A DNA stretch of 32,059 bases from a virus, in the IMG/VR virus record IMGVR_UViG_3300029910_000069, positions 1 through 32,059 of that record. One strand, 5' to 3'. Below the pieces are notes generated by a model. That model was given only the letters and a program-made list of their open reading frames with translations. It was not told the origin of the DNA and ran no database searches. Each line of letters begins with the position of its first letter. Position 1 is the first letter of the stretch. Positions 2,738-27,086 of this stretch are shown one piece after another. Both the position numbers and the translations under genes were made by a program.

Positions 2738-5122
<2,385 letters not shown>

Positions 5123-5135
5123 GTCGGGCATCCTC

Positions 5136-5963
5136 TCACGGAACAAGGAGGTTCGGGCTCTGGTACGTCCCTGGCGCTGTCGCAGGAGGGGCGAGAGCCT
5201 TCGCCGCCATCGTCACGAGGCTTCCGGAGCCGGGATCAGGCGCCGCCGGATCGATCAGTGCTGCGATCGCCGAGAGCTGTGGCGCTGTCGCCAGCACGGC
5301 ACCAACCGCTGCGAGCAACGGAAGAACGATCACGAGGTTAGATAGGACGGCGGCGAGATCGATCATGAACTCCGCTCCGCGCACCGTCGTCTGGCCGGAC
5401 TTCGCCAGCGCCTCCATGACTGCGGTCGCAACAGCGACGTGGTCCCCGTAGGAGTGGATCAGAACTCCTCCGTCCGGCCCGAGCGTCCCGTGGTCGGTCG
5501 GGACGTTTCCCCACGGAGCGCCGAACGTCATCAGTCCCGGAAGGAAGACGGAGGACGACAGGTCGAACCGATGGTCGTGAACTGGATCGACTTCGTCGCC
5601 GGTACCAGCCAGCCAGGCGTCGAGGGATTCTTCGGAGGCGATCAGGTAACCCTTCGTCGCCGGTACGAGATCGAGCGTGAGCAGATCGATCAGCGTTCCG
5701 TCGCTGATGGGGAACGTCAACCGCTGTCCGCCTCCGCCAGGGAAGAGGACCGGGATGTTCTGCTCGATCCCGAACGACTCCAGCATCCGGACGTCGGTCT
5801 GGTCGTAGTAGCCGTGCTTCACGAGGGGCTTGACGGACACCCGCTGCGTCTTCGCGTCGTAGCCTGTGACGACGGCAGGGATCGCAGTGTGGACCCCATC
5901 CAACTGGCCGAGGATCTGGAGACGGGCCGACGTCCCTATCGATCTGGCGCGCTGGATGGTCAT
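5136..5963 (-). CDS. Baseplate spike (membrane-puncturing, Gp138-type)
   Basis: This 275-residue protein starts at ATG 5963, overlapping the hub gene by ATGA. The N-terminal 140 residues look like the Gp138 OB-fold spike domain: [19 protein letters not shown], then [22 protein letters not shown]-like spacing and [13 protein letters not shown] Gly-rich turn region (about 155-175: [10 protein letters not shown]) is consistent with the start of a beta-helix. The C-terminal 90 residues are hydrophobic and Ala/Pro-rich ([20 protein letters not shown]). Spikes of this type tip the tail tube and pierce the outer membrane; a Gram-negative host would fit but is not proven. The hub gene upstream is translationally coupled to it. 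Confidence 0.8.
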
Positions 5964-24614: not shown

Positions 24615-24769
24615 GGCGACTGCTCCTTCGCGGCGTCCAGTTCCTTCAAGTAGTCATCCCAGCGGGTGACCGGCGGCTTCTTCAGGGCATGGCGGATCGA
24701 GTTCAGGAACCGGAGTCGCTCCGTCTCTGTCATCGGCGGGAGAGGCTCCTTCGTCGCGGTCGACTTCAT
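24611..24769 (-). CDS. Small hypothetical protein (52 aa) of the accessory cassette
   Basis: The start at ATG 24769 overlaps the RHH-like stop by ATGA and has GGTGGAG upstream. The 52-residue product (MKSTATKEPLPPMTETERLR...) is helical, with TRWDDYLKELDAAKEQ at the end. A longer frame upstream is Arg/Gly-rich shadow. Function unknown. Confidence 0.65.
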   Translation of the reverse strand: MKSTATKEPLPPMTETERLRFLNSIRHALKKPPVTRWDDYLKELDAAKEQSP

Positions 24770-25095
24770 TCGCTCCACCCGAGCTTCATCTTCGGCGGGT
24801 GCCGGACGTCTTCGACCTCGGGTGCGAGCGCGGCGGGGTTCCCGGCAGGCGCGGCTGGCGCCGCGACAGGGGCCGGTCCTGCCGCGCCCGCTGCCTTCGG
24901 CGCGTCCACTTCGACGTACACCTTCCGTTCGCCCGGCTTGCCGACGTGGAGCGAGCGGAGCGCCGCAGTGCTGGCCGCTCGCCGCGCCCAATCGGAGAGC
25001 GACCGCCCGTCCGCGTCAGCCGCGTGCTGCCACGCTACCTTCTCGTCGGGAGTACACCGGACGATCAGCTTGTCGGTGAAGAGCGCTGCCTTCAC
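24766..25095 (-). CDS. Ribbon-helix-helix-like small protein
   Basis: The gene starts at GTG 25095, overlapping the Leu-X-X repeat gene stop by GTGA. The 109-residue product opens with a strand (KLIVRCTPDEKVAWQHAA) and two helices (DADGRSLSDWARRAASTAAL), a layout like CopG/MobC-type ribbon-helix-helix DNA-binding proteins. The rest is Ala/Pro-rich and likely disordered. In such an operon it could be a regulator acting on the palindrome upstream of the promoter; this is inference. Confidence 0.65.
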   Translation of the reverse strand: MKAALFTDKLIVRCTPDEKVAWQHAADADGRSLSDWARRAASTAALRSLHVGKPGERKVYVEVDAPKAAGAAGPAPVAAPAAPAGNPAALAPEVEDVRHPPKMKLGWSE

Positions 25096-25970
25096 TTCGA
25101 CTCCGGATCCTTCATTTCGCAGAGTTCGCGAAGGATCGAAACCGGCGACGGGATCTTCTCCAACTCGCTGAGGGCGCTGAGGGCGCTGAGGTCGCTGAGG
25201 GCGCGGAGGTCGCTGAGGTCGCGGAGGTCGCTGAGGGCGCGGAGGTCGCTGAGGTCGCGGAGGTCGCGGAGGGTGCTGAGGTCGCTGAGGGCGCTGAGGT
25301 CGCGGAGGTCGCGGAGGGCGCGGAGGGCGCGGAGGGCGCGGAGGTCGCGGAGGTCGCGGAGGTCGCGGAGGTCGCGGAGGGTGCGGAGGTCGCTGAGGGC
25401 GCTGAGGGTGCTGAGGTCGCTGAGGTCGCGGAGGTCGCGGAGGGCGCGGAGGGCGCGGAGGATCTCCGAAGCCTTTCCTCCCGTTGCAACGTCAACGATC
25501 GGCGGAAGAGCCAACAACGTCTCTGCGAACTTCGTGAACTCACTCCCGTCCTTCAGGTTCGCGGCGATCACATTCAAGCAGGGAGGGAGGATCTGGCGGA
25601 CAGACCAGTCGACGACGCGATAAAGACGGCGACGTTCCAGTTCATCGCTTCCCCGGCTCCCGACGATCAACGGAAGCAGCGCCCCGCATTCCTTCCGCCA
25701 GTCTTCCCGCGCGTCCTGAGTTGAGATCGCCAGCCGATGAATGACCGGGCTTGTGCATGGCGGACAGGCGTCCGATTTCGGATCGAGCTTCTCCGCCAGC
25801 GCGTCGTCTCCGAACTCCCGTGCAACGTCCCGGAGGATGCGGCGTTCGGTCTGGATCAGGCAGGCGTCGCCTTCGGCTCCAGACCCAGTTCCTCCGCGCA
25901 GCTTGAGGGTCGAAAGGAACTCCGGGGTCATCCGGGCACGGGCTGCGGTTGCGATCTCAGTCAGGTTCAT
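25092..25970 (-). CDS. Leu-X-X tripeptide repeat protein, first gene of the accessory cassette
   Basis: The start at ATG 25970 (MNLTEIATAARARMTPEFLS) has ACAGGAG 8 bases upstream and lies about 28 bases from a predicted transcription start; a longer frame from 26081 would run through the promoter. The product is 292 residues. Residues 1-150 form a conserved-looking domain (GDACLIQTERRILRDVA, CPPCTSPVIHRLAI, ALLPLIVGSRGSDELERRRL, VVDWSVRQILPPCL) that recalls a recurrent phage/bacterial hypothetical family in which low-complexity Ala-rich repeats follow. Here residues 171-269 are 33 tandem Leu-[Arg/Ser]-[Asp/Ala/Thr/Glu] units. The tail has SPVSILRELCEMKD. Function unknown; a rod-like or binding domain is possible. 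Confidence 0.8.
   Translation of the reverse strand: MNLTEIATAARARMTPEFLSTLKLRGGTGSGAEGDACLIQTERRILRDVAREFGDDALAEKLDPKSDACPPCTSPVIHRLAISTQDAREDWRKECGALLPLIVGSRGSDELERRRLYRVVDWSVRQILPPCLNVIAANLKDGSEFTKFAETLLALPPIVDVATGGKASEILRALRALRDLRDLSDLSTLSALSDLRTLRDLRDLRDLRDLRALRALRALRDLRDLSALSDLSTLRDLRDLSDLRALSDLRDLSDLRALSDLSALSALSELEKIPSPVSILRELCEMKDPESK
25164..25460 (-). repeat. 33 tandem 9-bp repeats
   Basis: The stretch is built from 9-base units of one pattern (plus strand GC[GT]-GAG-G[TG][CT]) with changes almost only at fixed positions. It encodes Leu-Arg-Asp, Leu-Ser-Asp, Leu-Arg-Ala and variants. Identical neighbouring units show recent duplication. Length change by slippage would keep the frame. 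Confidence 0.92.
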
Positions 25971-26004
25971 TGGGGTTCTCCTGTGCGACGTTGCGCGGAG
26001 CGTT

Positions 26005-26144: not shown

Positions 26145-27086
26145 CTACGCCAATAGAGGGCTGAAATCCGGGTCGGGGTAGCAACGGCAAGGCCCGATCC
26201 CGCTGCCGGGGTGCCCCGTCTCGTCCTCGTTTGTCCCGCCCCCCATAGGGGGATCGTCCCATGTGCATCGGACGCCTTCGAGGTCGAGGTGACACTGTCG
26301 CTCGCGCGGGTCCTGGACTCCCCTCCAGAAGTAGCCGTCGATCCCGAGAGCCGAGATTCGCGCTTCGTTAAGCTTGCCGTTGAGCTGCGCGACGGACGTA
26401 CCCGCGATCCGCTTCGCGTCGCTTTGGCTGCTCCCGTACCGAGTAGCCATCTTCTTCGCGAGAGTGTCCGTCGCCATGCCCGACGAGTAGGCGTCCTCGA
26501 TGTCGCCTCGGAGTCGGTCGAAATAGCGCTCGGGGACCGTCTTGATGAACGCGACGTTCTCGGTCGTCCAGGCGGCGACGTGGTCCCTGATCGGCTTCTC
26601 GATCGATCCGTACTGGAGCCCGGTCGCTGCCCGGAGTTGACGGTCGAGCTGCTCTCGCTGGTGGACGTCGATCCGGTGCCCGAACTTCGTCGGGAGTTCC
26701 TTCAGCGCTTCCCAATCGAAGGCATCGTCGAACGTGTTCTGTGCGACGGCCGCAAGGTGGAGAGCTCGGCGCGCATCCAGGGCGACGGAGCGGTTCTTCC
26801 ATTCGGTCGGTCCCGGAAGTTGGTGGGGGAACCAGCGCTTCCGGTCCGGCGGAGCGGCGTCCATCCCGTTCGTCCGGCGTTGTGCCGACAGGTCTTTGAG
26901 GATCTCCTGTTCGACCTCCGCGAACGCGGCGCGCGCCCGATCGCAGATCGGTTCGATGGCGCGGTAGTACGAAAGCTCGATCGCCGTCGGAGGGATCGGT
27001 TTCGGAGCCCGGCGGAGCCTGCTCTTCGGTCGGAGCGCGGTTAGCTTGCGCGCCAGCGCGATCGTCCCGGCGCGGTCCAGTATCAC
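26145..27086 (-). CDS. Head morphogenesis protein, MuF / SPP1 gp7-like
   Basis: The gene starts at GTG 27086, overlapping the portal stop by GTGA. The 313-residue product has a helical N-terminus (ELSYYRAIEPICDRARAAFA) and the MuF core: TENVAFIKTVPERYFDRLRG, then DTLAKKMATRYGSSQSDAKR and IAGTSVAQLNGKLNEARI. The conserved end is present (RGVQDPRERQCHLDLEGVRC and PPMGGG...HPGSGIGPCRC), the typical Cys/His pattern. MuF proteins enter the prohead with the portal and may be ejected with DNA. No toxin domain is attached here. Confidence 0.9.
   Translation of the reverse strand: MILDRAGTIALARKLTALRPKSRLRRAPKPIPPTAIELSYYRAIEPICDRARAAFAEVEQEILKDLSAQRRTNGMDAAPPDRKRWFPHQLPGPTEWKNRSVALDARRALHLAAVAQNTFDDAFDWEALKELPTKFGHRIDVHQREQLDRQLRAATGLQYGSIEKPIRDHVAAWTTENVAFIKTVPERYFDRLRGDIEDAYSSGMATDTLAKKMATRYGSSQSDAKRIAGTSVAQLNGKLNEARISALGIDGYFWRGVQDPRERQCHLDLEGVRCTWDDPPMGGGTNEDETGHPGSGIGPCRCYPDPDFSPLLA

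Follow-up and report, generated by a model that had tools for sequence, protein, structure and literature searches.

According to passages of a survey of low-complexity regions (LCRs) in prokaryotes and phages (Nucleic Acids Res. 2019; PMC6821194), Ala is enriched in the LCRs of phages; the survey also reports enrichment of proline and under-representation of hydrophobic residues such as Leu. The two phage protein families treated below, here called A and B, are not mentioned in those passages, and their repeats differ from the composition given there in that proline is almost absent from them and that Leu is dominant in the array that is the subject of this report. Among tripeptide-repeat proteins, the antifreeze glycoprotein is built on Ala-Ala-Thr (PMC6628104); like this protein and the Gly-X-Y repeats of collagen, our array has nine-base units and a three-residue period, but it carries neither Gly nor Pro at fixed places and matches no family in Pfam. 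An earlier note on this DNA had set the array apart from both leucine-rich repeats (LRRs) and pentapeptide repeats, and our searches agreed with it: no LRR family in Pfam matched the protein at E <1, the internalin A model of NCBIfam, whose cut-off is 1600, gave 15.7 bits, and there was no Pfam match to a pentapeptide or hexapeptide beta-solenoid, the period here being 3. Matches of the repeat itself in Pfam, PHROG and PADLOC that lay below threshold were discounted as effects of low complexity.

The window, i.e., the whole stretch of DNA analysed, is 32,059 nucleotides long and represents a 32-kb virus contig (IMG/VR record IMGVR_UViG_3300029910_000069). The gene with the Leu-X-X run is situated on the minus strand at 25092..25970 (ATG at 25970, stop codon at 25092-25094) and encodes 292 amino acids; an AGGAG ribosome-binding site, read directly from the sequence, was located at 25978..25982 on the same strand, 7 nt before the ATG. 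Three parts of the protein, all encoded on the minus strand, were distinguished: 1) an all-helical N-terminal domain (residues 1-170, 25461..25970), as indicated by hmmsearch, hhalign, conserved columns and AlphaFold2, 2) the array of 33 tandem 9-bp units (residues 171-269, 25164..25460), as located by TRF and unit count, and 3) a C-terminal helical end (residues 270-292, SPVSILRELCEM, 25095..25163), as indicated by the AlphaFold2 helices and the C-termini of relatives, whose conserved C-terminal helix lies in the same position. The start of the next gene (109 aa, 24766..25095, minus strand) overlaps the stop codon by 4 bp (GTGA); its match to NikA/TacA-like ribbon-helix-helix proteins was weak and below the cut-off. 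The preceding gene (26145..27086, minus strand) encodes a phage Mu gpF-like minor head protein (Pfam PF04233, E 1.1e-8). The window gene is located among head genes, unlike the family-B relatives examined, and comparison of the neighbourhoods found no neighbour genes common to the window and these relatives. Elsewhere on the minus strand of the window, a large ORF (2738-5146) contains collagen-like Gly-X-Thr/Pro repeats (4473-4528 and 4827-4901); it probably encodes a tail-fibre-type protein and has no relation to the Leu-X-X gene.

The 33 tandem Leu-X-X tripeptides encoded by 9-bp repeats, the feature first noticed in this gene, were confirmed. Residues 171-269 form an unbroken run of 33 Leu-[Arg/Ser]-[Asp/Ala/Thr/Glu] triplets (LRD 11, LRA 7, LSD 7, LSA 4, LST 2, LRT 1 and LSE 1), and TRF reported a single array (25165-25461) with a period of 9, 33.0 copies and a score of 377. 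The unit has the DNA sequence CTC-MGC-RMC, with GAG at the end of one unit; nonamer positions 1, 2, 3, 5 and 6 are invariant and position 9 varies once, the remaining variation being found at positions 4 (C/A), 7 (G/A) and 8 (A/C). Each of these variants alters the amino acid, although with 4 variable sites the lack of synonymous variants is weak evidence. Seven unit types were present, the commonest making up 33% of the array, and unit-order analysis found no convincing higher-order repeat among the 33 units (identical-unit fractions of 0.07-0.33 across lags). Two further IMG/VR assemblies, with stretches of 13.4 and 5.8 kb that are 99.99-100% identical in DNA, had the same 33 units; one more contig, the third, stops within the array.

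A direct search returned near-identical copies only, and single-sequence searches of phage and plasmid records with the N-domain gave no match at the usual cut-offs. Single-sequence matches of the N-domain in genome searches were at chance level when inspected by eye, and a Streptomyces plasmid match (E 0.4) was likewise rejected upon inspection. The relatives were reached by reading a conserved pattern from weak tblastn matches, followed by a profile search. Two such weak matches to the N-domain, one at E 0.05 on a plasmid of Methylobacterium and one at E 2 in phage clone MT835534, encode proteins that match one another at E 9e-11, and both resemble the window protein. A family-B profile of five sequences matched the window protein in hhalign (probability 96.7%, E 4e-10), and scanning of viral contigs with this profile identified 48 loci. 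The window protein scored 55.6 bits in hmmsearch against an HMM of these 48 members, built from N-domains only and with the window excluded. Both results bear out the suggestion that the first 150 residues are conserved. By identity, the closest family-B row is L217 (37% over 111 columns), which has an AAYAAD-like repeat. The columns best conserved in family B are Gly27, Cys37, Pro70, Asp86 and Arg92, and also Cys72, Asn85, Arg115, the His of a GSH motif and the Glu of a CxxE motif. Those that are invariant are kept in the window protein, but the nearly invariant His and Glu are not; the loss of these two marks the window protein as a divergent member. As judged from sequence profiles, then, the window gene is a member of a widespread phage family that had no prior name. 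With MT835534 and the Methylobacterium bullatum plasmid (NZ_LR743510) it has in common the N-domain, the position of the low-complexity segment and the C-terminal helix; it differs in its N-domain, which is divergent, and in its Leu-Arg/Ser-Asp/Ala triplets, the repeats of relatives being mostly Ala-rich. No model in Pfam or NCBIfam matched family B, PHROG matches were marginal, and a literature search for families A and B found nothing. The family is rare in bacterial genomes: within one class it occurs in 2 of 289, and the 237 genomes of one phylum gave four weaker matches.

The DNA pattern of the repeat also led to two proteins of another phage family, family A, for which at least 80 viral loci were found, with relatives in Xanthomonas phages KPhi1 (K1pha_60), phiXaf18 (phiXaf18_37) and XapPhi5. 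Family A has the same layout as family B, namely an N-domain, a low-complexity segment and a last helix, but its N-domain is not detectably related to that of family B by sequence (hhalign probability 0.9%). The two proteins (L099 and L167) have LRA/LSD and LRD/LSD runs of their own, encoded by the CTC-MGC-RMC nonamers of the window. Family A was considered as the window's own family because of these two members, and the sequence profile test gave no support: the family-A HMM, whose N-domain carries GCAVGC and PGADLS motifs, had no match in the window protein. The presence of the same nonamers beside family-A and family-B N-domains could reflect either convergence or DNA exchange. The predicted models of A and B, described below, follow a common order (a short strand, a Cys at a helix start, helices, the repeat and a last helix), and on these models the two families possibly belong to one superfamily.

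Most of the 48 viral relatives in family B carry another low-complexity repeat at the position of the window repeat, followed by the conserved helix. These segments include AAYAAD, AAWDAARA, AAWDAARAAAGD, LADLAARAAL and ALDLALDL, as well as AVAVAVAD/AVAVAD, VEVEAAVE and AWAGAGAG/AGAWAG, and about ten members have ordinary sequence there with no low-complexity segment, so the family can do without a repeat. The objection that all relatives might lack the repeat, named in the earlier note, holds only in part: the relatives examined do not have the Leu-X-X run, but most have a different repeat in its place. Trees built from the N-domains only require at least 18 shifts in repeat class for B and at least 26 for A, these counts being approximate because classes were assigned by simple composition thresholds and the tree searches were quick; Leu-type repeats arise in three separate places on the B tree. 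Turnover is also seen between close pairs. The N-domain DNA of L171 and L173 is 97% identical and their repeats are unlike in length and order, and that of L169 and XapPhi5 is 92% identical with quite different repeats. It had been proposed that copy number changes quickly without loss of frame. Copy number does vary between relatives in both A and B, and lengths differ with the frame preserved, but near-identical copies of the window virus share the same 33 units, so that the fast change was not observed. Family-B membership and the swapped repeats, taken together, we consider very probable. Since the relatives carry other low-complexity repeats at the same position, the Leu-X-X run looks like a fast-changing, helix-forming insert and not a new fold.

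Contigs often stop inside repeats of this kind. The contig end was reached before the stop codon in 23 of 80 family-A loci and 9 of 48 family-B loci, many of them inside the repeat, and the record of the XapPhi2 isolate (L248) also terminates inside its repeat; genes of both families evidently break assemblies. Such breaks are what one would cite for an assembly artefact or a spurious ORF in the window, a reading that we regard as scarcely credible given the AGGAG site, the family homology in frame and the same array in two more assemblies. The last of these makes an artefact of one assembly unlikely.

AlphaFold2, run on the window protein with the family alignment, gave a model with pLDDT 78.7 and pTM 0.74. 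The N-domain was all-helical (block mean pLDDT 77-96), the centre of the repeat (residues 193-238) fell below pLDDT 50, and C-terminal helices were predicted at residues 252-271 and 276-285 (block pLDDT 80-93 over 261-290). The family-A model was similar (pLDDT 80.5, pTM 0.77), with a repeat centre below 50 and a long last helix reaching 98. Foldseek found no PDB fold match at E <0.001 for either model, a result in which the low-confidence repeat may hide a partial match, and a profile search of the PDB found no match. The sole significant viral fold match to the model was A0A6J5MX58 (E 1.4e-4, probability 1.00), a protein from an uncultured Caudovirales phage; itself uncharacterised, it may be a family-B member. 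A tight solenoid or a rod with a Leu stripe had been proposed for the three-residue period, and a dedicated Leu-X-X fold of this type, perhaps 3-10-like and binding ligands, would be consistent with the lag-3 periodicity, which is perfect across the 99 residues of the window repeat (z 11.5), and with the LRA/LRD/LSD runs found in two family-A proteins. In an alpha helix, however, a strict three-residue period shifts Leu round the helix and leaves no straight stripe. The best residue lags also differ between arrays (2, 3, 4, 6, 7 and more), with periods of 2, 4, 6 and 7 found at the same position in relatives, so that a specific three-residue fold does not appear to be what the family needs. 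Considering also the low pLDDT of the repeat centre and the lack of a PDB fold match, the solenoid and the striped rod are not supported and seem very unlikely.

Comparison of codons in the repeats with those in the N-domains of the same genes revealed two patterns at the DNA level. First, within arrays the third codon bases vary far less than bases 1 and 2, with a mean third-base entropy of 0.74 bit in the repeats vs 1.78 in the N-domains. Second, whether Ala codons end in a purine or a pyrimidine is linked to the share of W, E, K, Q and M in the repeats (rho 0.79, p 2e-18), and no such link was found in the N-domains (rho -0.06, p 0.54). Both are expected from the expansion of a very short founder motif. 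At the protein level, proline makes up only 9 of 5501 repeat residues and glycine is scarce in most arrays; in the repeats, CCN codons number 11, TCN 399 and ACN 91, as compared with 627 CCN and 375 TCN codons in the N-domains. The codon variants in 99 arrays comprised 63 synonymous and 355 nonsynonymous ones, i.e., 15% synonymous vs 29% expected, an expectation that presumes equal mutation rates, and the 99 arrays are not all phylogenetically independent. With synonymous variants about half as common as expected, the arrays look enriched for side-chain diversity and, together with the scarcity of proline and glycine, filtered for helix-forming sequence.

Tandem 9-bp arrays of the pattern CTSMGNRMN (at least 11 copies) were also found in 61 bacterial genomic contigs (e.g., L038, L051, L077 and L081), belonging to many unrelated bacteria, often with short or no ORFs and near-uniform internally. 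In the cyanobacterial MAG Symploca sp. SIO1C2, arrays reading LRE/LRK occur on several contigs (L028, L030, L032, L039, L044, L050, L057, L059, L064 and L068) and constitute a genome-wide repeat family. Such arrays raise the question of whether the window repeat might be a 9-bp satellite, neutral and without function, grown in a tolerant part of a gene of which the N-domain alone matters. The short or missing ORFs of many genomic arrays, the ten or so family-B members that do without a repeat and the way residue content tracks a synonymous third base would all fit. Yet 61 of 70 genomic nonamer arrays of the window pattern have only 1-2 unit types, compared with the seven of the window array; being so unusually mixed, the latter does not represent a recent expansion from a single unit. 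A functionless satellite would also leave unexplained the depletion of proline, the excess of nonsynonymous variants and the recurrence of low-complexity segments at the same position in two families, and we judge it unlikely. The tandem nonamers and homogenised third bases could alternatively mean that the array acts as DNA, as a recombination hot spot or as protein-binding iterons, its translation being incidental. That proposal seems to us highly unlikely: the array keeps its frame, with a conserved coding part on either side, the depletion of proline is a constraint at the protein level, and the DNA motifs of relatives are entirely different.

Variation limited to codon positions 1 and 2, as seen in many arrays, is also what might be expected of a dedicated writer such as a diversity-generating retroelement (DGR). 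Adenine mutagenesis by DGRs gives a wider spread of residues than the narrow sets found in the repeats, e.g., GCG/TCG/TGG/GAG/CGG, and the variable sites extend along tandem arrays. Among the PHROG or Pfam matches listed for family-B neighbours there was no reverse transcriptase. We consider a writer of this type extremely improbable.

The account that we prefer combines expansion of founder motifs with a filter for helix-forming sequence, and we hold it to be rather probable. Short founder motifs would expand by slippage or unequal exchange, thereby creating and renewing the segment and locking one third base throughout the array. Selection would then retain those segments that stay in frame, are compatible with a helix and are mixed in their side chains. 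In the window phage, the founder would be the CTC-MGC-RMC nonamer, giving Leu-Arg/Ser-Asp/Ala. The segment may act as a helical arm anchored by the N-domain and the last helix, between which it would probably form a hairpin, and its surface and length would vary between phages. By way of a guess, the arm could touch a fast-changing partner, such as a factor of the host, and serve an accessory or counter-defence purpose; a function with a variable partner is proposed here only tentatively. The variable binding scaffold suggested in the earlier note is a possible role as well. Among family-B neighbours to which a name could be given, early or accessory genes prevail (DNA methyltransferases, integrase, Holliday junction resolvase, an Acb2/Tad1 hairpin protein and the restriction alleviation protein Lar), which hints at an accessory, perhaps counter-defence, role for family B. 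Single neighbours also included a uracil-DNA glycosylase, and there were several DNA methyltransferases.

By itself, the tripeptide run is a curiosity; its value lies in being one version of a segment whose chemistry is exchanged across two widespread phage families without a name, whose genes break assemblies and are missed by current family libraries. The repeats of A and B provide a natural series on the birth and filtering of low-complexity protein, in which founder effects at the DNA level (the third-base lock) and limits at the protein level (helix-compatible sequence with mixed side chains) can be separated within the same genes. It is conceivable, though doubtful, that A and B have each acquired, in the same position, a helical arm that is hypervariable, renewed from founder motifs and kept diverse by selection, and that phages in general use such an arm to follow a host partner as it changes, without retroelement mutagenesis. 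If so, side-chain chemistry would shift while the synonymous bases remain fixed. Should the arm indeed be under diversifying selection, it would point to a rapidly changing partner and possibly to a phage-host conflict.
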